64,000 nucleotides of DNA from Owenia fusiformis. Its lineage: Eukaryota; Annelida; Polychaeta; Sabellida; Oweniidae. The notes under the pieces are model-generated. The model did no database searches. It was given only the letters and a program-made list of their open reading frames with translations, and was not told the DNA's origin. Shown in pieces: positions 19,624 to 63,827 of the stretch. Numbering within the stretch: the stretch's first letter is position 1; each line of letters opens with the position of its first letter. Both the position numbers and the translations under genes were made by a program. The stretch is from positions 9,478,349-9,542,348 of the forward strand of contig CAIIXF020000010.1 in assembly GCA_903813345.2 (NCBI GenBank). Reading direction: 5' to 3'.

Positions 19624-20309
19624 AATAAATGCAAGTACAACTGTGAATTCAGGCACAACTCATATAAATGCGGGTACAACTCATGAACTGAAAATGCAGG
19701 TACAATTTATGAATTATAAATGCGGCTATAATGCATGAACTGGAAATGCAGGTACAATTCATGAATTATAAATTCGGGTACAACTAATGAACTCAAAATG
19801 GAGGTACACTTTATGAATTATAAATCCGGTTACAACGTATGAACTGGAAATGCAGCTACAATTCTTGAATTATAAATTTGGGTACAACTCTTGAGCTCAA
19901 AATGCAGGTACAATTTATGAATTATAAATCCGGGTACAACGTATGAACTGGAAATACAGCTACAATTCTTGAATTATAAATTCGGGTTCAACTCCTGAAC
20001 TCAAAATGCAGATACAACTCACGACTTGAAAATGGGTACAACTCATGAATTATAAATGTGGGTACAGTTCAGGAACTCAAAAGGCAGGTACAATTCATGA
20101 AATGAAAATGTTGGTACAACTCATGAATTATAAATGTGGGTACAGTTCAGGAGCTCAAAATGCAGGTACAATTCATGAAATGAAAATGTTATTACAACTC
20201 ATGAATTATAAATGCAAGTAGAATGCGTGAACTCAGAATGCAGGTAAAACTCATGAATTGGAAATGCAGGTACAAGTCATGAATTATAAATGTGGGCACA
20301 ACACATGAA
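19624..20309. repeat. 26-bp minisatellite, about 26 copies, abutting the TSP-B stop codon
   Basis: Tandem units of 26 bp resembling ATGAAYTNNAAATGCRGGTA plus CAAYTC. Copies alternate between ATGAATTATAAAT and ATGAACTSAAAAT types, giving a 52-bp higher-order period. The array runs to the TAG of TSP-B (20310-20312). The sequence over the stop codon (CATGAACTATGAATAC) already resembles a unit. If the TSP-B polyA signal is at 19410, the array is transcribed in the 3' UTR. Confidence 0.9.
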
Positions 20310-40200: not shown

Positions 40201-43200
40201 AATTTTACAATTTTCAATTTTGAAAGTTTTCATTGCAATCCTACATGCATTGTTGATAGCACATGTTAAGATGAAAGGCACTTCAATTCGTTGTAGTGGA
40301 CCTGTCGTCACATATTGTCATGGACGTTTTCATTGCAATCTTACATGTATTGTTGATAGCACATGATAAGATGAAAGGCACTTCAATTCGTTGTAGTGGA
40401 CCAGTCGTCACATATTGTCATGGACGGTTTCATTGCAATCCTACATGTATTGTTGATAGCACATGTTAACATGAAAGGCACTTCAATTCGTTGTAGTGGA
40501 CCAGTCGTCACATATTGTCATGGACGTTTTCATTGCAATCCTACATGTATTGTTGATAGCACATGTTAACATGAAAGGCACTTCAATTCGTTGTAGTGGA
40601 CCAGTCGTCACATATTGTCATGGACGTTTTCATTGCAATCCTACATGTATTGTTGATAGCACATGTTAACATGAAAGGCACTTCAATTCGTTGTAGTGGA
40701 CCAGTCGTCACATATTTTCACGAACTATGCTCATCTAAATCTTAAATGTACTTCTATTACCTGTATCGATTACATGTCAGTATGTGTTTATTTTAATACT
40801 TAATTAACCTATTTATATCTGTGCGTCTGTACATCTCATACACTTCCATTGTTATAACCGTGAATAGCATATACTGAAGAGAGATTTAGATTAGAGAGAT
40901 TTCGCTACTCACTTTGAGCATGTTTATTATTCCCGTATAGCGTATAACTTATGAAGCATTTGATTACGTCTTCGTTTATTTCGCAGCTGTATACGTCCAT
41001 ACGTCCACAAGTGAAATGTTTTTACGTTTGGACGACGATTTATAAGAATACCACACATATGGACGTATAGAGAGACGTTATACGTTATACGTGAATAATA
41101 AACATCCTATAAGTGAGTTGCGAAAACTCTCTACTTTTTTTTATTAAAACTCTCTACTTATTTATATTGTTCACACGTATAACAGTTATATGTTTGTCTG
41201 TATGTTTGTCCTTGCCTATCATGTCTGCCTTCTTCGTATGTCTATGTAGTAACTGGGCGTATAGGGAGCCAAATAATGCAGGTGGACGAGAGGATTGCGT
41301 CCATACACGAACCAACGGCCAGTGGAACGATGCACCATGTTTCGACAAAGTACGATACGTTTGCAAGAGAAGCGATGGTATGTCCAGCGTTGAAATCAAA
41401 ATTTAGATTTTGATAGGAGTGGAGACATTATTGTTTGTGTGTGAAACCCCTGATTTAAACCACGACCCAATCTAGTTCTGTATTTTACTCCATTTTTACT
41501 CCTGCCCAGATATTATCCTTCACATACCACAATCCTAGATAAGTTGACCTGTGTGTCTTTACCAATTCCAACTTGACCCCTCATCAACACATCTAAAGGA
41601 TTTTCATTAATATGGCTTCTAAGGAAGAAACCACGTGTCTGTATTGATAACAACTGGGATAGAAGAGCCGAACATTTCTGATGTGGTTGCAGACGAAACA
41701 CAAGATGTAATGATGAAGCACGTTGAAATGGCAGATGCAATCTTAACTCCCTTTTCAATACTTCTGCTACTCCTCTTAAAACAAAGATAACACTATACCT
41801 TTGTTATAGAAAGGGTCTGTATTTGTAGCTACTGGTCAAGGGGTGAACCTAACAATTCCGGGGGTCGGGAAGACTGCGTTCACGCCAGGACTGACCAAAG
41901 ATGGAACGATGCACCATGCAATGGAAAACGACGCTACATATGTAAAAGAAGCGATGGTAGGAAGACCCAGTCTGTACTGCGCATCCATACGCACTGTTAA
42001 TCAAGAATCACTTAAGCACTACCTTTTTAGGGCATTTTCAATGTAATATCCCCACTCCCGATACAATTACACCCTTAGGGCACTGCTACTATACCCCATA
42101 GACCCTTCATTTTAGTAGAGTGAAACTTCTAGCTAGTCAAAAAGAACTTGTGTATTTCTAGCTTCTGGGCAAGGGGTGAGCCTAATAATAGACGAGGTCG
42201 TGAAGACTGCGTCCAAGTTAGGACTGACCAGAGATGGAACGATGCCCCATGTGCTAACAAGCTGCGTTATATATGCAAAAGAAGCGATGGTAGGGTACCA
42301 TCTCCTAACACCATTGTTCAAATCAGGATGTCAAACGTATGGGGTATACGTTTGATACATCTATGCTAGACTGTGTATATACGGGTATTTAAGGTGTTGC
42401 TTGCTAAAATTAACACTCGATGCATAGCATCTCATACAAATCTTGGAAAGCAACACCTTCAAGAAATTGTCATTCCACATTGCACCGAATCAAAAGCTTA
42501 AATCCTTAAATATATGAGGGTCATATTATGGGCGGTTTTGGATGTGGGGTATATCCTTTGGGAATATAGATATATTATTTCCCGATGGATATGAGTATGG
42601 CCCATATTCAAACCGAGCATCACACAACTTATTTTTCCTGGGACATCCATACCCACGTTTGTTTTTAAGCGCTCTCATTCTCATTATTTTCAAGAAACCC
42701 GCATCAACATTTTGGTCAAGAAAATTCTACTTTCTGCATCATCGATTTTGACAGTTTCGCTAAAGCAAGTTATTCTAACAATTGGACTGTTTTTACACTG
42801 AACAAAATGATTTCCCTGGAATATTGAAGTGAGTGATACACAGCGAGGGATATATTTATGTCCACCTTCCAAGGGATATCAATTTTATATCCCACTGTTA
42901 TGTACCTGAAACCCAGCCTGAAACCTAACTTGTCATATATAGGATAAAGAATAATATAGCATTTAATAACTATGATAAGTCACTACTTTTTAATCATTTG
43001 CACACCACACGTCCTATTTAACCCCAAACTAACCTTTAAAAACTGTAGCATTACAAAGCAAGAAACAGAATTAGAATTGTGTTTATACATAAGAGCTGAT
43101 GACCTCAGTCAGTTCACGACGTGGCGTTCTTTTGTCGAACAGTGATATGATACAACATCATTCCAATTCTTTGGAAAGATCTACAGAGACAATTCAAGAT

Positions 43201-45030: not shown

Positions 45031-48000
45031 TTAATTTGCTGGTGCTGCACAAAACAGACAAGGTATGACAACCGAATTGAGGCTTCCGTTCGGTAAAAGA
45101 GAGGTTGGTTCATTCAGATGTAAGCAATGAATCCCGCTGTTCTGTACCGTATGTCTTGCATGAATTGTATCTCCGGTTACTAACTCTAACGTGTTTCCAC
45201 CATCAGATCCGATGACCAATGAATCTATTAAACCTATAATTTATAATTCAGATATAATAAAGACTAAAAACGTGTTTGAATGCTTGTGTATTTTTATAAT
45301 TACACTAATATGTTATGGTGAGTCATCGTACTCTGATATTATAAATAGGCAATATAAACTGTTTGCAATATTTGTTTGGTGATGCTCTTTCATATCACGA
45401 CATTAATATCTTCTAAGACGTATCGATTGTCATGTAATGCATACGGTGTCGCGATTTTTTGTAATTAAATAAAAACTGTCAGAATACTATCACTTGGTGT
45501 TAAAAGTTAAAAGACAGTAACTTACCGAGGAAACCGCCATACTTTTCATGCAAGTCGTAGACCACATTCACATTGACGCCATGTTTGCCCCTTTTAACAT
45601 CAATGTGTTCAACTCCACTATCATCGGCATAAGGCTTTATCTTTATTCCACCTTCATACACCTACACGTACATCGAAAAGTAGTAAATGTTTTTGCACAA
45701 TGATTTCTGGGGCTGCTTTTTAATGGACTTTTTTGACGCGTCACACACTTTTATTTGAATTCAGTTTCCCAAAATACACCAGCACATTGCAGACAACAGT
45801 TTACATACCTTGATATGTCCAGTAGACATGCGATAGGAGCCGTCATCCCATCCACAGCTATATGTCCCATTGTTGATGTCAATAAAATTGTGTTTAACGT
45901 ACACATTGTCGTCACCGATGAATACAACAACCTCTTTCAGCCATTTTGTACCATCACCAAACTTAACGTTGACTTTGATCTCTGATTCCCCTTTGGTGAT
46001 ATGACTAAACAATATCATGACTTCTCCTTGTGGTCGGTATAAGTTGTAACATAGAGGTATGTCAAGGTCTTTGTCTGGTTGTAGCACATGTGGATCACCA
46101 GTAACGCTAATATCTGAAGAAAAAGTACAAAAGTAAGCATGTATCTAATAAAGATACTGATTGATGAATCTTCAGATAATAAACTAAGGGTTGACACAAC
46201 TTTCGGCTGTCGGCTACAGGATTAACGTTCTATTTTATGGGCAACTCATTTAAATATGAATAGTACCTGCCATTATTCCATTCATATTTAAATGAGTTGG
46301 TCCTAAAACAATAGGTTAATCCGGTAGCCGACAGCCGAAAGTTGTATTTGCGAATACAAGTAGAGTATCAAAGTACCCTCGATATGTTGTTTCTGGAAAC
46401 TAGGTTAAACAAAAACAACTTATCTACTATTTCACATGCCACATTTCTCACCGCAGCAAGTTGGCTCGTTGCAGCATCTCTGCGGACATTTGGAACAGGG
46501 CTCGTCAGATGAGCAGTTTTCCCAACCATCATGCTCCCAAAGGCACTTCGGATTTTTCTTCCAACAACAATCAATTGGGCAACTTTCATATGTTTCACTA
46601 CTTTGACAGACGCTATCCCCGCAAAATGTATCCGGAATATCATAAAGTTCATTGCTAAAAAGATGATATTTAGTTACGCTAGTTGATGACCTGTACTAGA
46701 ACGTCACTTAATTATAAATCAAATCGAATGTAAGAAACACGCAGAACACCATAATCCAAACATACGAAAAAACACAATAGAGACTTTCAGCTTGCATATA
46801 AAATTGAAACGGCAACCAATACGTATTAATCGCCCATATTCAAATGCATATAGTTTTCTCACTTTAATAATCGTTCGGTTACAGTGTTTACTTTGACTAC
46901 ACATCATCGAGTAATATGGCATTGTTATGGCAGGTTATAGCTGGTTTTCTATGATACATATTTTGAACAAGCTCGTTTCTTAAGATGTTTGTAGCTAAAA
47001 CATGTATAATACGTAAACATCATATTCTTCAGAAAACATTATAATGTGCATCGAAATCTAAATTGCTTGCATAATAGAGATAAATATAATGATTCCCGTT
47101 GACACCAACGTAAAATTGCAAATTTCTCGTTTTTAACACGAAATTCTGAAGCTGAACGGGTAGCTGAAGTAGACTAATTAGCGCTTGTTTTGTATGCGCG
47201 CTATACACGTTACTATATTTGATTCATGTACTTTCCGTTCACGGTTACGTTGTGAAAATATTGCAAGCTTAAACTCTCAAATACCTAACAGAAACCCCAG
47301 TTACTTGTCTGGAGTTTACATATCATTAAAATCCGTAGAATGACAAACGTGTTCATTCGTAAACGGGTACACTCACACATTTATTTTACCATCCACTTCT
47401 TTGCACAGTTTGTTGAAACAGATTTGCCATGCCCAACAAAGTCCAGGGATTTGAAACAACCATATATCATCGCATCTTAAAAATACATGCAATATTTACA
47501 ACAAAACATGCTCGATCCCTAACATAACTGTCGGCTGTCAATAAATGTCTGCAATGGACCAAGTTAAGAACTGTATCCATTAACCAAGGAAAGTTACCAG
47601 TAAAAACTCAAAATAGCCTTAATCTGCATTATAAATTATGGAAAGAACAACTTTATATTTAATCGTCAGAAGAATTCAAAAACTTAGTTCGATTACCGTA
47701 ATTTTGCCAAATCCAACAGCCTGTAACCTGTGATTTATATTTCTCGGGCCCTTATGTATGAGACCGGAATATTACTGAAAATAAAATTCCATGTACTTAC
47801 TTAGACTTTACCTTCAATTGACCATCGCAGCCCCCACACTTGTATGTTTTAGAGGCTTCTTTATTACATATCGTTGCATTGCCAGCTGCAGTGTCTTCTC
47901 CACATGGGCCGCAATACTTTCCTCTACTTGCACCATCATACACTATTTGATCCTGCGATCATTTATATTTTAAGCTGTTGAATAATGCATTCTTTAGGGA

Positions 48001-48534
48001 AGATTTTAACACACGTCCCAACGTGGTTACTAAGATGGACAGAATAGTGACAATAGGGATCAATCTGACATAGGGATCATTTATTTTCATCATTTTCACC
48101 CACAAGGAGATCGATTGTATTACAAAATCATACTCTACCTTGTGAAATATCAATTATAAGACGGGATTTCGATGACTTCTCTAGCCGGAGACCGGTACAC
48201 GAACTGCAATTTTACTGAACTGAGTGTCAATAATCGCGATTTCAGTTATTTAAAAATTACTGTGCCGTAAGTAATAGCTGCTGGGGTACTAAAATTGACT
48301 AAAGTTGATTCAAGTTGTTACCTTTTTGCACTTGCTCTCAGGTTCGTCACAGTTATTGCAACATGTGTAAAAATGAAGGCCTGTCTTGCCTCCCCATCTA
48401 CAATTCATGCATTTTCCGACAGGCGGTTTATCCCCAGTTCTTCTTTTAACCAAGTGGTGCCAGGTATGGATGTCATTTGCGTATATTCCTTGGCAACTCA
48501 GCAATAAAATTGCCAGTAGTACGCCCTTCCTCAT
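45031..48534 (-). CDS. Secreted Cys-rich protein with ITIH C-terminal-like domain (ITIH-like 1), 7 exons, 433 aa
   Basis: Exons, 5' to 3': 48534-48322, 47952-47801, 47475-47377, 46654-46452, 46113-45809, 45661-45526, 45224-45031; 1302 nt, closed by TAA. Residues 1-19 are a signal peptide (MRKGVLLAILLLSCQGIYA), followed by LVKRR, a likely proprotein cleavage site. Residues 35-222 form a Cys-rich region with CMNC, TCCNNC, CGPCGED, CGGCDG and CGDSVCQSSETYESCPIDCC, the last resembling the known CGDGVC..GE..CP.DC motif. Residues 223-433 resemble the inter-alpha-trypsin inhibitor heavy chain C-terminal (vWD-like) domain: GDPHVLQP, IPLCYNL, then a conserved beta-rich end. VIT and vWA domains that normally precede it are missing. 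Paralogue of the gene at 48929-54219. The exact extracellular function is unknown. Confidence 0.8.
46196..46345. mobile_element. 150-bp hairpin element
   Basis: ACAACTTTCGGCTGTCGGCT at the left and AGCCGACAGCCGAAAGTTGT at the right form a near-perfect stem. It continues through AACTCATTTAAATATGAA / TTCATATTTAAATGAGTT. It lies in the intron between exons 4 and 5 of ITIH-like 1. Non-coding MITE. Confidence 0.8.
47150..47285 (-). mobile_element. Diverged copy of the GAGTTTAAGCTTGCAA element
   Basis: On the minus strand, GAGTTTAAGCTTGCAATATT and a CAC-GTGAACGGAA block match one half of the copies at 34946 and 51905. The other half has diverged or been replaced. It lies in the intron between exons 3 and 4 of ITIH-like 1. 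Confidence 0.45.
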
Positions 48535-48928
48535 TGTTGTCCCAAATAGTTTGAGTAATTTGAAATTGCAGATAAAAAATCTACCAATGTTACTATTTTA
48601 TTGAATAAGCTGGATGTTTTAACCCACGTACTTGTAATAAAAGCTTCACATTCTAAAGTATTTATTGTAATATATGGTCATTTTTCGTGAGCTGTGATTT
48701 ATTTCTGAAATTCACTTACAATAAAAAATAAATGATCTGATTTTCCTATTGCAGCTGATTACAATTGTACAATGAAATGTTAAATATTCAAATAAGTTAA
48801 GTTTATAATTCATATAATATATAATAATAGTCTATTGCAAGATAAAGGACAAACGTGTGCTTCATCATTTCGGTCCAAACAAGGTATCAATAATATATGA
48901 ATTGTTGTTTTAAGGTCTGATTTTAATC

Positions 48929-51900
48929 TCAAAAGTCACACCCAAGACAAAAAGGAGTCAGTTGATTTCTCTCCGACACAGTGAGCAACTGTTCTTGCAC
49001 GTCACCAGTCAGCTCCCAACAGAGTGTATGTGCTCTAAATGTTTGCTTCACGGCTATTCGTCGTCCATCTCTCACGGTGAGATCTCCACTCGTGGTGCCA
49101 GTTATTGGGTCACGTGACACATTGATGACACCAGTTATCTCTCTGTTGACAATACCTACAACATTGGAAATATTTACGAAATAAGTATAAACGTTAAAGT
49201 ACTTTGATCAATTGGCGAATACATTATGTAAAGAGAGAAACAGATCTTGTGAGCTTAACAGAATTTTTAAAAAAATTCTATAATAATGATTACTATTTTA
49301 TATTTATTTGGAATAATTTAACATTTTCCCCCATTTTTGCACGTGGAATCCTTCAATAACATCACCAATATCGCGAATCTGTATTTCAAAACCACAAATT
49401 GAAGATGTTGGACGTTTTATTCTTTCTGAACTCCCCACTAGGCATAAGTGTAGCTAGTCGACATGTTTTTGATAGTTTGATGTTTCAAATGGTGCTGGTT
49501 CTAAATTTAATGAAATCATTTTCCTACTATAACTTTATATTGCTTTTTCTCTTACTTAGAAATCCAGCGGGGTTTGATCCTGTTTGCACTCTGTTAATGA
49601 TTCCTAAGTTAAGGCCTCTGTCACGTGTACTGTTGTAGCGAACCTTAATGATGAAGTCTCCTGTCTTAACCTCCATATGTGTTGGGTAGATCTACAATTA
49701 AAACAAGGATGTGCAATGTATGTTAAATCAAAGAAATGTATGATGGTTTGTTGTATTGTTATTTAATAAAGTTTATGGTTCGTCATGTTGTCATTTTCAA
49801 ATGACGTTGTCTTTTTTCGCATCTTATAAATAAAGTTAATTACGTTCACGTTCCATTCTCCATATTTCTCACGGATACCAGCTTCATTAGTAGGCCACGC
49901 AAAGTTGCCCCTTCTCCTACCATTCACTTTGACAAGAATGGAGGATGTTGTCACACGAACACTGTCATTGTCAGTATTCTTTACCAATACACTACCGACC
50001 CATATCCCTTGTCCCCTACGTCCAAGAGTATCGTATTCAACACGTAGATCCAATCTATTTACACTGTCAACCAGTAGGATCTGAGACACCTTTTCCTTTG
50101 TGATTAAGTTGTAGCAAAGAGGAATATCAAGATCCGAGTCAGGTTGAAGGAAGTGGGGATCGCGTATAATTTCGGTCTCTATAACATCAATGAAGAACTT
50201 ATAAATAGTACTGGTATGCAGTGAATTTGTCAGTCATTATTATTATTCATTTATTAACCTGTATTTAAACAGAGTAGTACAAAACATATAATATACAGTT
50301 ATGGTGGATCGAAACATATTTACAGTTTAGTGACACCTTGTTAATTACAAGAGATCAGATGCATCTATAGTGTGTTTCACTAGTATGTTAATTGCCAGCA
50401 TATTGGCTGGTGAGCTTTGCTCTTTTGATATACATTACATGGATGATGTTCGAAATACCAGCCATGTCTGAATAAGTGACGTTGCCATTAAAATTAAATA
50501 TGATATTCTTATTGTCCGTCAAGCCATTGCCACTGTACTTGTCAAATATTTTTGCTAATTTGATGCGTTCATCAGAAAAATTCGTACACGAAAATAAAAA
50601 AATGATCCAGAGTTTCAATCTCAAACATGTCACAAAGGAAGCAGGTGCTATTAATACCATCATTTTTTACTCTGAAATCGTGACTGTCCGTCGCTAGGCG
50701 CATCATGGTTTTGCATTGAGCAAGTAATTCCGGCTTCATCTTCGCCAAGGTCCACCAGACACACGGTCTCAAGGGCCCTGTTGCCCCATCCTTTACGTCA
50801 CATATGTTAAGGCAGACGTCATGACGCCTATACGTGTTACATGTAGTCCTGTATATGGCTCTTTGTTTATCATTTACTTCAAGTTTAATGAATCTTTTCC
50901 ATGATCCTTTAGTTAAGTAGATGCCATTAACAATCATGTTAGTTAGCAGTTCTGTCAGGTTATATTTTCTAACTCGATCCCACATTTGTCGTATTGGGGA
51001 ATCCCAAGTGGTCTCTTTAAAGAAGATGATCGGTATTAATCTGGTTATAGTAAATTGTTTGTATATATTCGAAATTGGAAGAGTAAGTAGTCCAAACAAC
51101 ATCAGTAACATATCGTAATCAATTCTAAGTGACATGGAGTTCATTCCTAATGGCATAGTTGCGGATGGATTGCTACTGTGAACTGGGAGAGATTGCAATC
51201 TTCTTCCTATCTGCCTCTGTGCTACTTCTAGCATTTCTACGTCACTTGGCTTGTAGTTTATCAATTGGTCTCCATACAACATCGTGGGAATACTATAACT
51301 GTTGTACAGCTTTGTTGCTACTAGCGGTGACAGTCCACCTGTCTTGTGCCCAAGACCAAAGAGTGAGAATAGTTTCCTCTTTCCATTAACGATGGCCTCT
51401 TTAACGTGTCCTGAATAATTGTTCATTGTGGAAAGGGGGATTCCCACATGTTTAGCTTTCGTAACGTTGGATAAAGTTTTTGTGCCTAACTTGTATGCTT
51501 TTGTGTAGTTTTTCATCGACATAATTATATCGTCCGTCAATGCATGTTGGAAATAGTGCATTTTTGTTAATAAGTCTATTCACAGTGAGATGACTCTACC
51601 TATTGCCCTTGATTCCTTTACGAATGATCTTTCACCAAATCCGTTCACATCGAAACAGTTATCAATAATATAGCCTTTCGCTTTAAACTTAAAGGCATTG
51701 TTTATTGTTCCAAACAGAAATTTTGGACAGAATGGATTTTCAATACAGAGAACAATGAAACAAATCTAAAGACCTACTTTGAGGCTAAAACTGATTGACA
51801 GATGCTATCACCTGATAGCAGGCACAAACGCCATGAAGGTCTCATTGCGCAACCCTGATACTGGATTTTTGACATACATTTTTGAAATAGTCAGTTCTCA

Positions 51901-54219
51901 CATAATAGGAAATTTAAGCTTACAATGTTTTTCACAACCTAAACGCGAACGGAAAATATTTAATCGTGCATTTGTATAGGCAATTGGTCTTACGTATAGG
52001 TTGGCGATTTTACATGCAGGCTTAAACTCCCCAATATGTATCGACCGATTTCGTGTATATTTGTACAACTGGCCAATGCTGTCCTTAGGCTAAATTTTCA
52101 ACAAGTTTCTTGTCAAAAAGTGAACTTATTTTGGGACTCAAGATACATAGTTTCACGTGTCAGTATTTATCTTGTTTTTTAAAAACGCGATCAGCTTACC
52201 ACAGCAAGTGCTTTCACTGCAACATTTTGGAAGGCATGACGTAAAGTCCGTCCAAGAACATTGTATCGGATTTTTTACTGAACAGCAATCTAGTGGACAG
52301 GAATCGAATGTTTCAAGTCCGTTGCATGTTGCATCACCGCAAAACGAGGGAGGGATTAGGAGATCATTATCCAGAATTGCCCTAAAAATTATATGAAACA
52401 ATTAGTATGATAGAAGGAGTGACGTCTGGACGTATTTTGAATGATCACGATTTATCCCAGAATGGGCTCGATCTCTGCTTACAAGCATCTTATCAAAGTA
52501 ATATTACCAGTGTTTGCATATGACGTTTGAACGTTTTGTCATGTCTTTCGTGAATTCCGATTACTTAGTAACGGTATTTCTGATTACTTAGTTACGGTAT
52601 TTGATCATGCCCTCTGATGTCATGCTATAACTCATACGACTGGTAAATGCGACACCTATCTATTAGTCCAATCCACTTCCAGCATCTTGATTAACACAGG
52701 CAAATTAACAATTCAAATCTAACTCAAACCAATTCGAATATTCTTTTCATGATATGCATAATCTGACAATGATATCTACAAAATCAACTTTTCCTACCTT
52801 TGTGACATCAACTTTCCTTCATCAATAGAACGCTTCCCCGTTCCACTGTTGAAGGCTGGATTGCGAGGTGCCTGTTTACACAGCAATGTGAAACATTGCT
52901 GCCAAGCCCAACAATTATCTGGTGTATTCAACCAGACACTGTCACACCTGTGAACGTAAAATATATATAAATGTATAAGCGCATGTGCTAGATGGAACAA
53001 AACAAAACATATTTTAAACAATAAGAAATTAAACTATCATTCTGACATTTAAGACTAGTACTACTGATCTAAGAAAAAATCACAACTTAGTTTTAATGGA
53101 TCATTTTTAATTCAATGACGATTTGTATTGTACATGGCTCAATTACTTCAATTGCGTCAGCTTAAGTGTATCGTATATACTATAGTTAATTAAAAGGTCT
53201 ACATTATCATTTATGAAAGGTATTGAATTGCACTTAAATGGTATTTTGAAATACCAAAAATGGCATGCGCAAATCAAAAAAGATATGTGATATTAGGAAG
53301 TACATATTTTGCGTGACCAGACGTCACGTTCTGCAAGTTTTAATTTGAATCTTGTAAATGTTATAATAATTCTTGCACGTTTGTGGAGTTCACTACAATA
53401 ATGTTATAACAATAATGTTGAGGTTAAGTCACACTTTTCAAGAGAACCTGTACGCGTGTAATGTTTCTATCCCCGGGGATTTCCCGCTCTCACACATAAT
53501 TCTTCACGGCCACGTACAAGTTTTTAAAAACGTATATCCAAGTCTCGCTAATGTTTTAAAACTTACGCCGATCTCACTTCAGTTTGTCCATTACACCCAG
53601 CACAATCGTATGTGCTAACAGTGTCACAAATCAAAGCATCTCCGCGAGAACCGTCTGTTCCACATACATCGCAAAAATCTCTATTTATATTGGCGATTTT
53701 AACACTGCTATACTCTATCTAAAGTTTTAAAGAATGTTAATGAAACATTTATTTGCAATATGGTAAGACCAGAATGTTAATGTGGGTATTTTCATTCTCA
53801 GCAAGAAAACTCTTTCCTTTAGGAAACGTAATACTAGAATTGGAGAAACTTCTCTTTGGACAGATCATATTTGAAATCCCAAATGACAATTGAAATCAAT
53901 CGTTTTTTAATGATTATCAAAATTTAGAAAATTGTTTTACCTACTTTACATATATGTGATTTCTAGTTAGAAATGAGACGACTGTATTTTCACTTACTCC
54001 TTGGCATGTATCGTCGAGTCCATCACAATTGTTGCAGCAAGTGTAATAGCGGTCATTACTGCGCCCCCCTCCTTGACAGTTCATGCATTGCCCGAGGCTT
54101 GCTTGTTGTCCAACCGCTCGTTTGATTAACGGATGGATTGAACGGGAAATTTTAGCCTCTGTTTCTTGTGTTCCAAGACACAAAATTGACCATATGAGAA
54201 GTCTATGCCAAATGGTCAT
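48929..54219 (-). CDS. Secreted Cys-rich protein with ITIH C-terminal-like domain (ITIH-like 2), 7 exons, 467 aa
   Basis: Exons, 5' to 3': 54219-53998, 53718-53567, 52947-52798, 52381-52200, 50178-49844, 49691-49556, 49155-48929; 1404 nt, closed by TGA. Signal peptide about 1-22 (MTIWHRLLIWSILCLGTQ), then LIKRA as in the paralogue. The Cys-rich part has CMNC, TCCNNC and CGDATCNGLETFDSCPLDCC. The C-terminal half has RDPHFLQP, IPLCYNL and REITGVINVSRDP. It ends with LTVRDGRRIAVKQ and LCWEL, which align by eye with the end of ITIH heavy chains. Exon number and every phase equal ITIH-like 1; exons 2 and 6 are also the same length. Exon 3 is longer (150 against 99 bp). Intron 4 carries a LINE fragment. 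Possible polyA signal (TTTATT on +) at 48597-48602, only 63 bp from the next gene's start codon. Confidence 0.8.
50232..51570 (-). mobile_element. 5'-truncated LINE with reverse transcriptase C-terminal fragment
   Basis: An uninterrupted 329-codon minus-strand frame (51561-50572) resembles the region after the RT catalytic core in non-LTR retrotransposons. It has the pattern GIPLSTMNNYSGHVKEAI, KLFSLFGLGH, KLYNSYSIPTMLYG and a Cys-rich end (CFLCDMFEIETLDH). A non-coding 3' part continues to an AT-rich tail (AATAATAATAATGA on the minus strand) near 50232-50255. The catalytic YADD region is missing, so it is truncated. The intact frame suggests a fairly recent insertion. It lies in intron 4 of ITIH-like 2, in the same direction as the gene. 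Confidence 0.75.
51905..52034. mobile_element. GAGTTTAAGCTTGCAA element, copy 2
   Basis: TAGGAAATTTAAGCTTAC at the left, CAGGCTTAAACTCCCCA at the right. The block CACAACCTAAACGCGAACGG and TACGTATAGGTTGGCG are shared with the copy at 34946-35080. It lies in intron 4 of ITIH-like 2. Confidence 0.65.
53428..53540. repeat. Dispersed repeat, copy 2 (see 32451-32657)
   Basis: Contains AGAGAACCTGTACGCG, CCCCGGGGATT, CCCGCTCTCA and TTTAAAAACGTATATC in the same order as 32451-32657, but shorter by an internal deletion. It lies in intron 2 of ITIH-like 2, ending just before exon 2. Confidence 0.6.
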
Positions 54220-54418
54220 GGCTAGTCTAAAACTGAAAGTTAAATATGTGAACTTGTTAGAAGTTGTTAATCAATGGATTTAATATCAGTTAAAATGGCT
54301 AAGTTGTAATTAGCTATGTATTGTTCTCTAACATTACCAAGATCAAAAGATAAAAAACAAGTTAAAATGACGATAGCTCCTGTTTACAGTGGCATTAAAT
54401 CGATTCGTTATATTCCAG

Positions 54419-55365
54419 GAACATGTCCAAGGGGATGGCGGGAACGCAACGCAATGTGCTATGGAATCTTTAGTCAAAGGAAGGACCAAAAAACGTGGAC
54501 AGACGCTGATAAATATTGTACACAGATCGGTGGGCAGTTGCTGAAAATCACATCGTATGTAAACTTTTTTGACTTATTTGGGACACAATCAAATTTCTTA
54601 ATAAACTTATAGTTTAATAAATCTTATATGATTTATTTATTTACCATCGCATGGGGTTGGCCTATAGGCGGCCATACCATTCTGTATCAAGGTTTAGATT
54701 AGCCATTGTGTTTTTATAGGTTGTCGGAACACTTCTATATCCGAACACTAACATACAGCATCAGAACGCAGGGTCAGCGTGCCTGGATCGGAATTTCAGG
54801 TGAGCCTAATAAGATAGCACTACCATCATGATAAACCATGACATCTCATTTCTTCTCATCCCTGAGAACGTGAAACAGAAAGATGCTATGGGTATATCAG
54901 AATGTAGCACTACTTATAACATGCATAAAACTAACGGTATTCTGCTCCATTCTATATTATAAATCGTATCGTCCAATGCCATTACCAACATTGCAAATTT
55001 AATGCAGAACGTCAAATATGATTGAATATAATCTTTTCTAATTTTTAGATAAACTTAATGATGGCAAGTTCACATGGGCCGATGGTACAGATATCAAGTT
55101 CAAATATTACGACACCAGACAGCCTGTATCAAGAAGGGGCAAACTTGATTGTGGATATATGATAACTAGTAAATACTTTACTTATGTAACCATTACAAAA
55201 CATAAAACTGAAATTAAGTGTAATTATATGCACAAGTGTCAAAGAGACAGGACCAAAATTGTTACAGAATATAACAAAAGAACATTTAAGAGTATACCAG
55301 TTATAAGGAAAACAAATAGTCCATGGTATGAAATCTCTAGGACGTCTAAGCAATATTTGACCTAA
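54419..55365 (+). CDS. CTLD with a basic, Cys-containing tail; 3' part of a lectin gene
   Basis: Exons 54419-54554, 54720-54799 and 55049-55365, with phases 1, 2, 1 and a TAA stop. The CTLD begins GTCPRGWRERNAMCYGIF, has the WIGI core and FTWADGTD. The second half has no EPN/QPD or WND. The last Cys pair appears as CNYMHKC, and about 50 mostly basic, polar residues follow. It has no signal peptide of its own. The frame extends upstream to an ATG at 54316 without one, so 54418 is better read as an acceptor (TATTCCAG). Spliced to the open phase 1 end at 44692 it gives a 465-aa protein with three CTLDs that closes exactly in frame. It could instead have an unseen first exon. Confidence 0.75.
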
Positions 55366-56952
55366 TAATTGTTATTATAACCGTTTAATATACTTCCAGC
55401 TTTTAAGCTGAATTATGCCTTTCATTAGAAGAGGTCAAAAAAATAGCAACAACTAAAATCCCATTTGTCACAATTTGGAGTACATAATGCGACAAAGAAT
55501 AATACAAATGATTTTAAATATAAGCTTTAGGTTTCTTAGAGCTATAAGTTTGACGTTATTTTTCTCATCAATACCAAAAAATTATGTAATCAGTGCATCA
55601 ACGTTTTGTATTGTTTCTCAGCTATTTATGAGATAAACAGTACAAATGAATCACTTTTATATTAGAATGACAAATGCTTAAATTATGCTAGTTCTTCACA
55701 AAATGGGTCTCAATATGTTTTGAATTATGGACTTTTATTCCGCGGTGAAGATTATCAATAATGAGGGCCTATTGCTCTTTACCCTTTGCATTCGTTTGAC
55801 TTCACTTCTTAAAAGAGAGCTTCTTCTTCAGCAGTAGTAGTAGTTTAACTAGACTCTGCACGCAGGATTTATCCCAGATGCGAGTAGAAATAATCTTGAT
55901 TTACGTCATTAAAAATTCACAATTCAGTCAAACTGATGTCATATTTGGAATCTACATGTAAAATTACATTTAGAAATGTGGTTTTGAAAAGAGTTTATCA
56001 ACTTTGAAAATTTAATTTTCTTTGAAAATGCGACTTCTAGGTCGGGGAGATTCCCCATAGAGCCCATGTTGTTAAACCACAAAAAGTGAAATATCTTTTC
56101 TTGTGTTGGGCAGATAATATTTTCTTTTACTGGACATATTTCAATTTGTATAACTATCAGATACATAAAGGTAATATGAAAAGTGAACCATTAAAACTCA
56201 TGCATATTCAAGTTTAAGGGAATTTTGTAATACCCTGCCATGTTAATTCCCCCGAATCAGCCACCTGGTGGCGAAACTGGTAACTACCTACTCGCATCTG
56301 AGTAATATTATATTTCTTGTAGTTAGATATTGCACTGTTGCTAATAAAACAACCATCAATACTTGGTGGAATTCATGAATCAGTGAGAAAAATCGTTATC
56401 ATTATCTTGTGATGATTGCAGTAAGGTCATAGAACAAACAACCATAACAAAATTTGATGATAGCCAGCAGTAACGTCGAGGAATAATTGTAAAGCGTTCC
56501 ATTGCATATGACTCAAATAGATTAATAGACATGCCCTTGGAATATATGAACATTCCAATACCTCTGTAACATTTAACCAGATATAAATCTTACCTATTTG
56601 TTATTGTATTCTGTTTTATAAAACACTGACAATAATTTGTTGTTCGACCCCTTGAGATAAAATGGATGAATTCTGGTAAAAACTGTTTTAAATGGTAAGA
56701 AAACTAATATGTTCGGAATCATAAATTACCTAAATATTCCACTCGATTTTGTTGAATCTGCTTGGCTTGTATTTGAAAAATCAAACAAAATCTGACAAGC
56801 ACACTTATGTATTTATACTAATTAAACACCGACATTTACCGTAAAATTATAGTAAATTTTACATTATGATAATCTATTTTTGTACATATGTATGTGTCTT
56901 ATAAAATGTATAAAAGTTCGTATCAAAATATTTACGTTTTTGACCCCTTGTG
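55366..56952. other. Intergenic or intronic, no gene seen
   Basis: Apart from the transposon at 55875-56304 there is no supportable exon. I looked here for a phase 1 signal-peptide exon for the lectin that follows and did not find a convincing one. Confidence 0.5.
55875..56304 (-). mobile_element. About 430-bp element with CAGATGCGAGTAG ends, copy 2
   Basis: Inverted relative to the copy at 38852-39278, with ends CAGATGCGAGTAG and CTACTCGCATCTG. The two copies bracket the whole lectin/ITIH-like block in opposite orientation. Confidence 0.75.
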
Positions 56953-57671: not shown

Positions 57672-60600
57672 CTCAATACAAATGTCCAACTGGTTGGAGA
57701 TTGTTCCAACAGTCATGTTTCTGGTTCAGTCGAGACAGGGCAACGTTTGCAAGTGCCAAGAGCAAGTGTATTGCTGCAGGAGGATGGCTTGCCAATTTGT
57801 ACAACAGCGAGGAACAGTCCTTCATCAGTGGTATGTTTCAAATAGTTTATATCTCAAAAACTCGTATGAGGTTATATAAAAGTTATTAGATGCTATATGT
57901 AATTTATGCACATCATTGACTATCTATCGATAAATTTATTTAAAATCGTATTTAAAAGGAAAGATTTCGTTCCAATAGACTATACCCAAATATATATCGC
58001 ATGGTAATGACTTATATATAGATATCAATACCATGTGCCCGCCATAATTCTGGGGAAGAAACCAAACTTTTAGACCGTAGTTTAAGTGTAAGTTTACAAT
58101 AAAATAAGAACAGTGTGAAACACAAAATTGCTCAAGAACGCAAATTTAATTGTCCTGAAATTATATTTAGGTAATATAAATGCTAACAGTTGGATTGGAC
58201 TCGAAAGGAAAACTGGAACCAAATTTACATGGGTCAAGGGAACCTCAAACGTATGTATATATTTCCTCCAAATCAAATAATTTATTTTTGTTTTTATTTA
58301 TACAGTAATAAGCTACTCTGTTTTGCTTTACAAAACAATTTTTCTATATTATCACGTGATCCTTGAAATTCTCGGTTGAATCTCGTCATATATTATTTTG
58401 AAATCGAGGCTTGAGGACTTTTCAACAAGTCTTTTTCTTAGGATGTTTTGACCTTTCAACCTTGCATCCGTCAAGTACAAATTAATACCATCTGAAACAT
58501 ACTAGTATGTATTTGAATTTGGCTACCAACTGGTATGCTAAGGTTTCCAAAACTACAACTCAGTGTGTATATGTATGTATGTATATGTATGTATGTATAT
58601 GTATGTATGTATATGTTACTAAACACTTGAAGATGAACAATGTTTTTAGATTCCAGACTTTCTAAGATTAGCCATAAAAATAAATTTCTAATTTGATATT
58701 TGGACATATAATGAAATGAAAATTAATTTTAATCAGTTTCAACTTTCTATCTTCCGATTGTCAACTAAATGTCATAATTCTGATTTCACATTTTGACAGC
58801 TTGAAAGAGGAAGTATCCGAATCATCTATTTATACTAATATATGCACAATTCACAACGATATGTCTATGTAAATCTTCTTCAGTTTACAAACTTTTGGAC
58901 TAACTACCCAAACACAATATCGACTTCGAGATGTACATTGGCTGTTAACAGTATATTCAAAGCCTATTGGATCAACACAAGATGTACATTATCATACAAC
59001 TACATATGCAGAAAAGATGCTGGTAGGTCAAGACGAAAACCACAAATAGTTTATTTTCAGATTGGAACTTTACCGAGAGGATGCTTGCAGGTAGTCAGTG
59101 AATCATTTTCGAATGATTGATCAAGCATTTGATTATTCCATTATTTATGTATACGCTGATTTCATATCATTACAGTTCACGAACTGGGGTAATGGACACC
59201 CAGTAAAAGGCATAAATTGTGTATCTGCTGATAATGTCGTGGACAAAGCAGTTTGGAGAACACCAACTCAGCCGAAAAATGCGTGCAATAACAAACGCAA
59301 TTATATATGTCGACAAGATGGCAGTACGTATTTGCCCAATCGCACGAGCACATTTCACAGCGGTCAAATCACTATTTTCTCTACACATAATTGTTTTATT
59401 TATCCTTATGGACCAACAACCCAGATACTATCAAACCCAGATACTATCGGATGTTCAAGGCCACCTGATTCGGCCTACCTATAGATGCACATTTGCATAC
59501 TATACAGACATCGGAAAGCACGCCGGTAGTTAAAGATGAACACCAGAGAGTTCAATTTTAGATGCAGACTTCACAGAGAATGCTTGCAGTTATGCAATAA
59601 ATGCTTTCCAGATAACTGATCAAGCGTTTGGCCATACAATTATTCATATGTAGATAATTTTATGTCATTACAGTTCACGAACTGGGGTAATGGACATCCC
59701 AAAAAAGGAATAAATTGTGTCTCTGTTATTAACACTGTAAACAAAGCCGTTTGGAGAACTCCGACAAATCCCAAAAACGCATGCAATAACAAAAGAAATT
59801 ATATATGTCGACAAGATGGCAGTACGTATTAACCAACAAGCACTGTCACATCTTGTAAAACACACAATGCTTCCGTTCACACTCGTTTTGGTCAACTTCT
59901 CTGTGTATAGATGCATATATACACATGTGCATGCTTTGCTTCACAAACCGACACACATATTACTTGCGTAGTTAGTTTGTACTAAAAAATGACGACACGT
60001 CTATGTCTCCCTATACGCATGTTTCGAATCACTTGCGTGCACCAATGCAATTAAAATAACTGAACTGAACTTATATCATAAATTTTGCAGAGGAAGTACA
60101 GAGAGGTGGTCACGTATGATCACTGCTGGTTATTTTTTATGTCGCCAGCACTTGTCTGTTACACTGTCTGTGTACGTTTGCTTTTCATGTATAGTACATT
60201 AATGCATATTATGTTGTGTTGTTTTGCACATTCTTTGGTACTCTTAATATCTCACACAATAGTGCTATCTACATATCTATTTACTTCTAAAATACGATTA
60301 ATATGACAACATTAAATGTATGATTAACTGGAACAAGTCACGTCAGCCTGCTGATCATCTCGTATATTATTTTAGAGAGTTTAAATGGGACTAGTACATG
60401 CAATAATTCACATGACACTGGTCCACATCAGAATGACACGAGTTTAAGTTAGTATCATCCAAAATGATACTCAAAATTCGTTTGATATCGATTCACCTAA
60501 GATTTCAGCTAAATCAAGTGACATTTTGATTCCAAATATTTCGATTGTAAAATTATGAAGTTTCGATTGTAACAGATAGAAAAAATACTTAAACAAAAAT

Positions 60601-63600
60601 AAAACCAAAAATTTTGGAATCCAGACTTAACTTGTTTTAGCTGAAATCGAAGGTTTATTGGAATTCAAATAATTTTGATCACAATCTTGGAGGAAATGGA
60701 CCCCAGTTAGTATCATCCTGATATGGACCAATAATGATGTTCTGTTTGTTCACGCCAATATGTTGCTCCAATTTAACACATATTTTTTTAATTTCAGTTG
60801 ATACCCAGAACCCACCACCCACAACAGTAGGATGTAAGTTATTTTTATAACAAATACCTGTATCAAAACTGAATCATTACTATGAATGCACAAAACAAAA
60901 CAAATATTGGATTGTCAACCACATAAAAACCATGCCATAAAGTAATTACACACAACCATTGTGACTCATTATGTTGTTTGTTGCTTAATTAACTAATATT
61001 GTATTTGTTCTTAAATTGCAGTACCATTTTACCCGTTATGTGGCGCAGGGTGGATTCTAGATTCCGTTGCCAACCAATGCTACAGACTGAAAATATCGCA
61101 ATCATCTTGGGCCCAGGCGAATTCAGACTGTAAACGTAACACAGGGGGTGGTCTAATGAGTATCATCGACCTCCATGAGCAGTCTTTTATCTCAGGTATC
61201 ATCAGTTCTAAACATGCATTTTGAATATCTATTCCAGTGTTATGCGATATGCTATTAATATCAAGGTCAAAATTAACAATGAATTTAGAGAGTTACACTT
61301 GAATACAAATTATTCGGATTAAAATGAATATATTTAAAAATGTAATGTTTTCGTTTATATCAATCGATCGTGAAAAGATCTGCTATCAATCAGATGAGAA
61401 TTTATTTGAGAATTGATTATAATATCTCTTATATGTAATCACAACTTACATGGAATCTTCAGCTCTGATGCTGACCAGTGCAGGAGCTGGGCAGACTCAA
61501 TTCTGGATAGGTGCCAACCAACTAGACAGGACCAGTGGTTGGAGATGGTCCGACAGTAGACCGTTCAGATATTTCAACTGGAAGGAGGGCTCTCCAGTCA
61601 GGTTCAAGAATAATGATTGTGCTTTTATTTCTTCACGTTTCGGAGGCATGTGGAGCAATGCACTTTGCTCTAGTAAAAAATCTTACATCTGTAAGAAAAC
61701 TGGTAAGATATACATTCTTTACTATGTTCAGATTCGGAAAGTTTTATTTTAAGTTTAATAATTATCACTTTATTGTTATAACATACAAAGGCTTTTTTTA
61801 AAGGAACAAGTGCTTTATGACTTGTTTAAGCGAAGGCTTTTAGTATGTTCCAATACAAAACTGGTATACTTTGTACATGTAAAAAGTACTATCATCTAGA
61901 TATCGACCCTATGGAATCCCAAAATCTTGATAAGTTGAAAAATAGAATAACACTGTCCTATAACAAAACTATAATGTTTCAGCTGCTGGTGTGAGTACAA
62001 CTGTTGTAACTGGACTCCCAACCACTCAAACACCACGTAAGATGTTCTTATAATTTTTAGGCTCAATTAATATACATTTATTTGCAATGTCTCCATAATG
62101 AGTTTGCGATATGTACAGTATATGATAGGTTAATCAGAAAAGAAGGTAACACATCAGACATTAATATTAATTGTCCGAAGTTAAAAATAATCATATAGCA
62201 GATATCTAATGGTATTATAAAGAAATATGTACTGACTTAGAGTTGTGTTTTCTGCATTGTCCAACGAGCTTTCGTCAATGGGCGTTTTTAACAATGATAC
62301 CATATTTCCAGCAAACTGTAGACCAGAAGCAATGATATCCGGCAACCACTACATTTCCCCAAGACAGTTGACTGCCTCATCACAGTTATCTGCACGAGCC
62401 TCACCATACCTATCAAGACTGGACCAGAGATCATCCGGAATTGGAGCAAGTAAGTTTCTTTGACATAAAATATGCAGATGGTCGCTATGCGAATTGACAG
62501 CATACTGACACATTGATAGCATACATACATGATGTTGATTACAGCACACCGGAATAACCTGACTACGGTAAAGACTTTATTTCGATGGTAGAACATTATT
62601 AACTGTACAATGAGTATTAAGACACTTTGATTGATTGTTGTTCCAAAGGAATTTAGTTTAGGTGCTCTATTAAACATACAGTTCATGAAAATCTAATTGA
62701 AGCGACGGTTATGTCCGCCATTTTTGACAACGGTATCTGGCTATTTCGAAGTGTTACAGCGAATAAAACGAAATAGGCATGGATGAGTTTGATTTTCTTG
62801 ATGTAGAGGCTGTGCGAAATGGCCACATAAATCATTTTGTATATTGGAATGGCAATGTATGTCACACGTGTGTTCATTATTAGAACTTGGAACAATAATC
62901 AACAAACCATATCAACAGAATTTCAAATGCCATCAATATAAGCAATAAAGTTGTAATATAAAGGGTCTACTTCTTTGGAATTGACTATTTCTTTACAGGT
63001 AGACTCCAGGTGGATGGAGCCCTAGTTCTACTTCTTTGAAACTGACCATTTCTTTGCAGGTAGACTTCAAGGTGGATGGAGTCCTAGTTCCAACAACAAT
63101 AGGCAGTGGATCCAGGCAGATTTTATGACTCCTATTCTCATAAAGGGTGTCGTTACACAGGGTAGAGCGGACGCGGATGAGTGGGTTAGGTCATTCAGGA
63201 TAAGATACAAGTATGACGAGCAAGCAAACTGGATATATTACTCCGATCTTGCCTCTGGATCACCCACAGTGAGTTAACACCATATATGTATACCTATTAC
63301 CGGATTTTCTCGCATATAAGCCCTGGGCGTATAACTGCAAGAAGGGGTAATTTCGTCTGTTATTTTACCTCTTATTTTTCGCATATGGGCGTATAAGCGT
63401 ACTACATTCGATTTTTGCCCATGGGCCTAAATTTAGGGGGGCGAGAAAATCCGGTAAGTATTATATAACATCTGTCATTAGACAAGTGCACTATTTTCCT
63501 GTCAGTCATACGTAAATTACATTTGAAAAGGTATTAATGTTCATGCGCACGATTCATTGACTACATTTACAAGTTATGGTATAGTTTCACTTTACATGTA

Positions 63601-63827
63601 CATCATTAGAGCTATGAAAATGTGTTTTTCTAAAATATATTGATCCCTGATTGACCCCACTAAACAAAACCTGGTGATTTTGTAGACATTCTCAGGTAAT
63701 GCTGACAGGAATACAAAGAAAACAAACAACTTTAGGACTCCATTTCAAGCCAGATGGATTCAACTGTGGCCAATATCATACAACAGAAAAATGTCATTAC
63801 GTTGGGAAGTAATGGGGTGTTTGGTTG
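57672..63827 (+). CDS. Lectin with two CTLDs and a discoidin (F5/8C) domain; both ends open
   Basis: Exons: 57672-57830, 58171-58250, one of three alternatives (58884-59022, 59176-59323, 59674-59821), 60798-60833, 61022-61195, 61463-61702, 61983-62036, 62312-62449, 63060-63268, 63686-63827, continuing right of the window in phase 1. CTLD-A begins YKCPTGWRLFQQSCFWF, has WIGL, and uses an alternative exon for its second half. A short linker (DTQNPPPTTVG) leads to CTLD-B (CGAGWILDS to YICKKTG). Neither has EPN/QPD with WND. Then a Ser/Thr/Pro linker (STTVVTGLPTTQTP). The complete discoidin domain starts CRPEAMISG, has GGWSPSSNNRQWIQADF and ends LRWEVMGC. The start exon was not found. The required phase 1 entry also matches the open end at 44692. 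The product is probably extracellular and binds glycans or surfaces. Confidence 0.82.
58566..58616. repeat. TATG microsatellite
   Basis: Repeats of TATGTATGTATA in the intron before the first alternative exon of the discoidin-lectin gene. Low complexity. Confidence 0.9.
58884..59022 (+). other. Alternative CTLD-A exon 1 (139 bp)
   Basis: Enters in phase 0, leaves in phase 1. Encodes FTNFWTNYPNT, SRCTLAV and YNYICRKDA. It is the most diverged of the three copies and 9 bp shorter. Confidence 0.8.
59176..59323 (+). other. Alternative CTLD-A exon 2 (148 bp)
   Basis: Enters in phase 0, leaves in phase 1 (donor GGCA|GTACGT). Encodes FTNWGNGHPVKGINCVS, VWRTPTQPKNAC and YICRQDG. Nearly a duplicate of exon 3, 498 bp away, including the intron sequence before it (GATCAAGCATTTG and TCATTACAG). 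Confidence 0.85.
59674..59821 (+). other. Alternative CTLD-A exon 3 (148 bp)
   Basis: Same length, phases and splice sites as copy 2. Encodes FTNWGNGHPKKGINCVS, VWRTPTNPKNAC and YICRQDG. Differences from copy 2 cluster in two short stretches (VK/KK and ADNVVD/VINTVN). Confidence 0.85.
59822..60797. other. Intron, about 1 kb
   Basis: Between the last alternative exon and the short Pro-rich linker exon. No exon or clear transposon visible. Confidence 0.6.
62975..63085 (+). repeat. Tandem partial duplication of the second discoidin exon's 3' splice site
   Basis: About 60 bp (GACTATTTCTTTACAGGTAG then AC-CCAGGTGGATGGAGC) is repeated just upstream of the real acceptor at 63059 (GACCATTTCTTTGCAGGTAG, then TGGATGGAGTCC). 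The upstream copy has lost a base, so using it leads to an in-frame TGA before the real exon. It is a non-productive decoy acceptor. Confidence 0.7.
63297..63457. mobile_element. 161-bp inverted-repeat element (TTACCGGATTTTCTCGC ends)
   Basis: TTACCGGATTTTCTCGC at 63297 and GCGAGAAAATCCGGTAA ending at 63457 are perfect 17-bp inverted repeats. Inside, GCATATAAGCC and GCGTATAAGC are echoed. It lies in the intron between the second and third discoidin exons. Confidence 0.85.

Follow-up and report, generated by a model that had tools for sequence, protein, structure and literature searches.

Three candidate mutually exclusive half-domain exons in a predicted CTLD-CTLD-discoidin gene of the annelid Owenia fusiformis

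In arthropods, exon arrays 4 and 6 of Dscam consist of tandemly duplicated exons, one of which is used per mRNA, and which encode halves of the Ig2 and Ig3 domains (PMC3236188). As described there, the paralogous exons are on average under purifying selection, with an omega of 0.26 on the branches leading to them, and their evolution is likened to a birth-and-death process. Insect serpins use exon duplication and alternative splicing to vary the reactive-loop region only, which applies to 4 of the 31 Tribolium serpin genes (PMC2375007). In oyster sperm bindin, an F-type lectin, diversity arises from few genes, with a mid-domain intron and alternative splicing (PMC5712786).

The locus described here lies in a 64,000-nt stretch of the Owenia fusiformis genome (GCA_903813345.2, contig CAIIXF020000010.1, positions 9,478,349 to 9,542,348 of the forward strand; hereafter the window), in a gene whose CTLD-A has three copies of its last exon (Table 1). 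Like the Dscam arrays, these copies are tandemly duplicated half-domain exons of a recognition domain. The two systems differ in domain and scale, since Dscam combines dozens of Ig exon copies into thousands of isoforms, whereas we find three copies of a CTLD exon. Moreover, expression and exclusivity are established for Dscam, whereas they are predicted for the CTLD-A set, whose introns, unlike those of Dscam, are without clear docking/selector-like pairing. The serpin exons shape an inhibitor loop rather than a lectin-like fold as in CTLD-A, and the account in PMC2375007 names no C-type lectin case. With oyster bindin, the CTLD-A set shares an intron in mid-domain and would share alternative splicing and lectin diversity from few genes. 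However, bindin has an F-type fold, splicing determines how many whole repeats it carries, and its variants come from recombination in the mid-domain intron (PMC5712786). The principle of mutually exclusive exons is already known from Dscam half-domains and serpin loops as described in these sources, and what appears to be new here is its proposed use in a CTLD half-domain. None of the literature matches listed (titles and starts of abstracts, with subscription papers poorly covered, hence weak evidence) reports a mutually exclusive CTLD exon set.

Table 1. Features of the exon set, its gene and the comparison set (window coordinates).
Feature	Position	Strand	Details
CTLD-A exon 1 (N-terminal part of domain)	57672..57830	+	AG/GT borders; reads QYKCPTGW...EEQSFIS; out phase 1
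CTLD-A exon 2 (WIGL...WVKGTSN)	58171..58250	+	out phase 0; constant donor for one of three copies
Alternative exon copy 1	58884..59022	+	139 nt; phase 0 in, 1 out; near-canonical CTLD spacing
Intron I1	59023..59175	+	153 nt; part of duplicated unit
Alternative exon copy 2	59176..59323	+	148 nt; phase 0 in, 1 out
Relic of copy 1 (copy 1')	about 59397-59518	+	many indels; unusable as exon
Alternative exon copy 3	59674..59821	+	148 nt; phase 0 in, 1 out; 88% amino acid identity to copy 2
Linker exon	60798..60833	+	phase 1 in; acceptor partner of chosen copy
CTLD-B, two exons	61022-61195, 61463-61702	+	second half is a single undivided exon
F5/8 type C (discoidin) domain	62312..63826	+	exons 62312-62449, 63060-63268, about 63686-63826 (last borders approximate)
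Comparison set, neighbouring gene	41250-41377, 41829-41956, 42162-42289	+	three 128-nt copies; phase 2 in, 1 out

The gene model runs from 57672 onward, the start codon and earlier exons lying outside it, and the predicted product is a CTLD-CTLD-discoidin protein. A Pfam search of eight single reading frames gave scores above cut-off in two. The frame of CTLD-A exon 2 alone reaches 17.3 bits for Lectin_C (PF00059), under the cut-off of 22.6 bits; the CTLD-B frame (61423-61752) scores 48.7 bits, and the discoidin frame (63026-63277) scores 55.1 bits for F5_F8_type_C. Because only two of the eight single frames exceeded the cut-off, we scored the joined (spliced) products instead. CTLD-A joined with copy 1, 2 or 3 yields Lectin_C scores of 50.8, 49.7 and 51.8 bits, respectively, and the alignment of each single-copy product extends to profile position 106-107 of 107. 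No Rfam match was found at gathering score, and no relatives in viral contigs were confirmed. Further downstream, the discoidin exon at 63060 has its acceptor and first bases repeated within a 61-bp tandem duplication (two copies, 89%; 62966-63090), whose upstream unit resembles, by eye, an out-of-frame decoy acceptor.

The preliminary description had reported three copies of the last CTLD-A exon, of 139, 148 and 148 bp, all phase 0 in and phase 1 out. Coordinates, lengths and phases proved right, and the copies have AG/GT borders. It had also concluded that only one copy can be included, and by frame this is so. All three single-copy messages are open through the linker and CTLD-B, and a stop arises in five of five other joins (skip, 1+2, 1+3, 2+3 and 1+2+3). 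The stop lies 31 nt into the linker when the copies are skipped, and 15 nt into the second copy in the three double joins and the triple one. Such exclusivity is automatic, however, because the duplicated exon has unequal phases, and it is therefore no independent evidence of regulation.

Judged by the sequence search published in PMC3228551, the copies are candidate mutually exclusive exons. They are of similar length (139/148/148 nt, with a default tolerance of 20 aa in that search). Their splice-site pattern and frame are conserved without in-frame stops (GT-AG, phase 0/1, open), and they are homologous, as assessed here via identity and E values rather than the paper's own alignment score. 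According to the same source, only 0.56% (90/16180) of adjacent exons on the fly X chromosome that are not mutually exclusive are alike in length, frame and similarity. Copy 1 shares 32–34% amino acid identity with copies 2 and 3 (window search, E 5e-5 to 1.1e-4). Its identity to CTLD-B is little below this, at 27%, and a family tree of nine C-terminal halves, with none of its six inner branches well supported, does not place copy 1. A search up to E 1 detected no N-terminal CTLD-A exon in the stretches separating the copies, so they are duplicates of an exon and not of a gene. We also considered alternative last exons. AATAAA occurs at 58679, 59596, 59709 and 60598, but there is no clear terminal exon.

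We propose that the region is probably a mutually exclusive exon cluster, with copy 1, 2 or 3 in each message and a history that led to the order 1-2-1'-3. The donor at 58250 would be joined to one of the copies, and the chosen copy to the acceptor at 60798. A constant N-terminal half of CTLD-A would thereby be combined with differing C-terminal halves (distal loop, beta3, beta4, beta5 and three cysteines), and one gene would give three versions of one recognition domain. Splice-site competition would pick one copy per message, wrong joins being presumably cleared as frame-shifted RNA. All three copies are presumably transcribed, and the alternative exons are likely to be real and functional. 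That the three domain versions bind different partners is our conjecture.

The splice signals bear on how a choice could be made. By U1 duplex energy, the donor of copy 1 is the strongest of the three (-8.8 kcal/mol). Copies 2 and 3 share the weak donor GCA/gtacgtat (-3.3 kcal/mol, a value equalled or bettered by 25% of random GTs), and the donor of the constant exon at 58250 scores little better (-3.8 kcal/mol, 21%). A GC donor three bases earlier and in the same phase may serve copies 2 and 3 as an alternative. Acceptor pyrimidine content is uninformative here, random AGs being at least as good in 44% of cases for copy 3 and in 75% for the constant exon at 57672. Around the acceptor (59167-59198), copies 2 and 3 share a perfect run of 32 nt, and around the donor (59299-59332) one of 34 nt; each run extends 9 nt into the intron. 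Correspondingly, all 15 synonymous changes fall within codons 8-41 (p 0.007, an optimistic value, as the exon ends were defined after viewing the differences). Either constrained splicing signals or conversion may account for these edges. With identical edges, the splice sites cannot distinguish copies 2 and 3, and so the choice between these two has to depend on their order or on internal or intronic signals.

Several exclusion mechanisms were considered. The inter-copy introns, at 153 and 350 nt, appear too long for steric exclusion, and none of the four donors tested (58250 and those of the three copies) is U12-like, which speaks against U2/U12 mixing. In Dscam-type pairing, an intronic docking site is complementary to a selector beside each copy. 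Whole-intron duplex energies gave z values of -0.3 to -1.1 for all six intron pairs of the 58884 set (40 shuffles per pair); for the six pairs of the 41250 set, z ranged from -1.2 to +2.7 (20 shuffles per pair). The longest helices between introns of the 58884 set lie within the range of 8 mononucleotide shuffles in five of six pairs. The helix of I0 with I1 is slightly above it (27 vs a shuffle maximum of 25), inside a TATG repeat. Overall, these tests, which are crude and cover a single genome, give no clear signal of docking/selector pairing in the 58884 set.

The same signals could fit copies that are alternative but not strictly exclusive, with copy 1 as default and copies 2 and 3 rare, or with double inclusion lowering expression via frame-shifted RNA. 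The donor of copy 1 is by far the strongest (-8.8 vs -3.3), the stop 15 nt into the second copy in double and triple joins would suit a switch-off role, and the identical splice edges of copies 2 and 3 (runs of 32 and 34 nt) make their sites indistinguishable. We nevertheless consider such a scheme rather unlikely, because the amino acid constraint on copies 2 and 3 described below points to useful translation, and a poison exon need not keep its cysteines or its fit to the domain.

Comparing copies 2 and 3 yields a gapless alignment in which 26 of 148 nt differ, 16 of them at third positions (binomial p 0.003); lenient scoring instead puts two one-base gaps at one codon. With dS of 0.79 and dN of 0.10, dN/dS is 0.13. 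We simulated free drift at four rates with one of the two copies unconstrained. At the slowest rate, 0.15% of the 2000 runs left that copy open with at most 6 amino acid changes; at the other three rates none did, and a stop was gained in 53–79% of runs. With constraint on both copies, 34–97% of runs stayed within 6 changes. The low dN/dS and the simulation therefore argue that copies 2 and 3 are both kept as protein-coding, and by this measure selection between them is mainly purifying. Copy 1 is too distant from copies 2 and 3 for constraint to be measured; it is open and completes the domain.

Six amino acid differences separate copies 2 and 3, four of them in residues 18-23 and single ones at residues 10 and 32. 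Two short stretches of differences had been proposed earlier; one cluster is indeed present, but the remaining differences are single. The clustering in residues 18-23 has a scan p of 0.026, which is optimistic because the window of residues and its width were picked after viewing the differences. Within it, pN is 0.43 vs a pS of 0.72, and pN elsewhere is 0.05. We placed the residues by aligning the copy-2 version to solved CTLDs and by an alignment with other CTLDs of the window. In these alignments, residues 18-23 follow the Cys of NCV and precede the conserved Trp, which places them in the beta3-beta4 turn and outside the long loop. Residue 10 corresponds to the EPN region and is the sole long-loop difference, and residue 32 belongs to a 5-residue insert before the next Cys. 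The strand names used (beta3, beta4) are consistent with PMC7618208. Copy 3 has a net charge of +7 and copy 2 of +4. The pN and pS values of residues 18-23 suggest relaxed or diversifying change in the beta3-beta4 turn, on 18 sites chosen post hoc. Selection for diversity of the long loop, as the preliminary description had envisaged, is not borne out, given the mainly purifying dN/dS of 0.13, the single loop difference at residue 10 and the position of the cluster in the beta3-beta4 turn.

Calcium-dependent sugar binding was assessed by a long-loop EPN or QPD motif together with a beta4 WND motif, as in PMC7618208. The combination is present in none of the three copies of the 58884 set, where the aligned positions read YPN and WIN in copy 1 and HPV/HPK and WRT in copies 2/3. 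Classical calcium-dependent sugar binding is thus not expected of any CTLD-A version. Dectin-1, a CTLD without these motifs, is still able to bind glycans, as described in PMC7618208.

A fourth, decayed copy is strongly supported by sequence comparison. It is a putative relic of copy 1, termed 1', in the intron between copies 2 and 3. Its start is taken from a weak tblastn match (59397-59432, YLSLWTNNPDTI to FTNFWTNYPNTI, E 0.22) and its end from a DNA alignment. In the latter, 59405-59518 matches copy 1 at 58892-59016 with a score of 58, compared with a mean of 26 and a maximum of 49 in shuffles, 0 of 500 reaching 58; with dinucleotide shuffles, 1 of 5000 reaches the score. The relic is the best non-self place of copy 1 among 1278 windows on both strands, the next best elsewhere scoring 52. 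Control comparisons of copy 1 with I3 (score 37, p 0.11) and with I0 (score 35, p 0.46) gave no such match. Moderate when taken alone, the match is in our view convincing because it is collinear with the duplication of I1 and copy 2. I1 is 73% identical to the last 153 nt before copy 3 (108/148 aligned; 40 differ), and downstream of copies 2 and 3 the similarity persists for about 9-16 nt and then drops to 42% over the next 171 aligned positions. The upstream flank of copy 1 shows no continuing similarity to the start of I2 (score 28, shuffled mean 28.4, p 0.51), and the left boundary of the duplicated unit therefore escapes detection.

The order 1-2-1'-3 would have arisen by tandem doubling of a unit of copy 1, intron and copy 2, after which 1' decayed and 1, 2 and 3 remained open. 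Under lenient scoring, the relic has 16 gap runs in 139 nt against copy 1, the adjoining intron 6 in 153 nt, and by eye the relic is without AG at the position of the copy 1 acceptor. It would thus represent the fate of an unselected copy of the same age and would serve as an internal control.

That a dead copy does occur in the cluster could be held to favour a single copy in use, the others being dead or dying duplicates, as could the weak donors of copies 2 and 3. For that pair, however, the intact, gapless alignment with dN/dS of 0.13 at dS of 0.79 and the free-drift simulation weigh strongly against it. The idea might still apply to copy 1 versus copies 2/3, yet that copy combines an open frame and a strong donor with completion of the domain, and we regard this explanation as improbable. 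Annotations are documented to mistake false exon duplicates for alternative exons (PMC11659978), but an assembly artefact through false duplication of haplotypes or contigs is hardly conceivable here, as copies 2 and 3 differ at 26/148 exon and 40/148 aligned upstream-intron positions and copy 1 at two-thirds of residues, the exon substitutions are codon-structured, and the divergence appears far beyond allelic.

A further comparison for the mutually exclusive cluster proposed here is found in the window itself, in the neighbouring gene with the set at 41250. Both sets consist of three alternative last CTLD exons with phase 1 out, and in both dN/dS is 0.13 for copies 2/3; in the 41250 set, synonymous sites are saturated in the comparisons that involve its copy 1. 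The sets differ in that the 41250 copies have phase 2 in and carry EPN and WND in 3/3, whereas the 58884 copies have phase 0 in, both motifs in 0/3 and another intron position. In an alignment, the CTLD intron lies before column 101 in the 58884 set and within the codon of column 102 in the 41250 set, with gaps just ahead of these columns that make the exact offset uncertain. Identity within the 41250 set is 68–79%, and 88% between copies 2 and 3 of the 58884 set. Between the sets, it is 25–37% for matches of at least 40 residues and 55–71% in C-terminal stretches of 11-14 residues.

The two sets had been described as unrelated in sequence. A close relationship is indeed absent (25–37%), but they represent the same part of the same domain family, with short stretches of up to 71% identity. 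Intron phases and positions differ between the sets, which fits separate origins. The 41250 copies among themselves, and copies 2/3 of the 58884 set, are far more alike than copies of different sets. Together, these observations argue that the 41250 copies and copies 2/3 of the 58884 set were duplicated separately. An older shared cluster may nevertheless have preceded both sets, since introns can slide and copy 1 of the 58884 set is unplaced. In the 41250 set, frames stay open in all single-copy and all double-copy products (three of each) and are closed in the skip and triple products, which is valid through the first following exon only and for an exon 1 model with one extra in-frame codon.

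Other features of the window were noted alongside the exon sets. Located between the genes of the two exon sets is a third CTLD gene fragment (54424-55363, + strand); its C-terminal half is divergent, and no exon set was noticed in it. In the intron before the 41250 alternative exons, a 100-bp repeat is present in 4.9 copies at 97% (40226-40720). A satellite at 19663-20311 has a 26/52-bp unit in about 25 copies with 69% matches, and 38860-39280 and 55870-56310 are, by eye, inverted copies of a dispersed repeat, perhaps a MITE, whose ends are CTACTCGCATCTGAG-like. On the minus strand, two tandem genes at about 6500-12400 and 22600-28600 contain, by eye, EGF and calcium-repeat-like exons and presumably resemble thrombospondin-type proteins. 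A second minus-strand pair of related tandem genes (45764-48600 and 49766-54270; 36–53% amino acid identity in matched stretches) has cysteine-rich exons with DPH..LQPD. Self-comparison of the window gave 182 same-strand matches within 6 kb; beyond the two exon sets, inspection by eye assigns these to tandem genes, satellites, repeats (EGF-like and others) and matches of one CTLD to another.

Among recognition domains, the CTLD has expanded widely, and its diversity has come mostly from whole-gene duplication. Animals without antibodies need other routes to varied recognition proteins. As a tentative and broader reading, Dscam-like swapping of CTLD exons, acquired separately in two neighbouring genes, might diversify such proteins here. 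The 41250 gene would keep its calcium/sugar site and vary the surroundings, and the 58884 gene, without calcium motifs, would vary the beta3-beta4 turn and the 5-residue insert, with copies being born and dying. With the putative swap of half a CTLD, a dead copy as built-in control and a separate set nearby, the locus would offer a compact test case for whether lectin genes are under selection for exon swapping.
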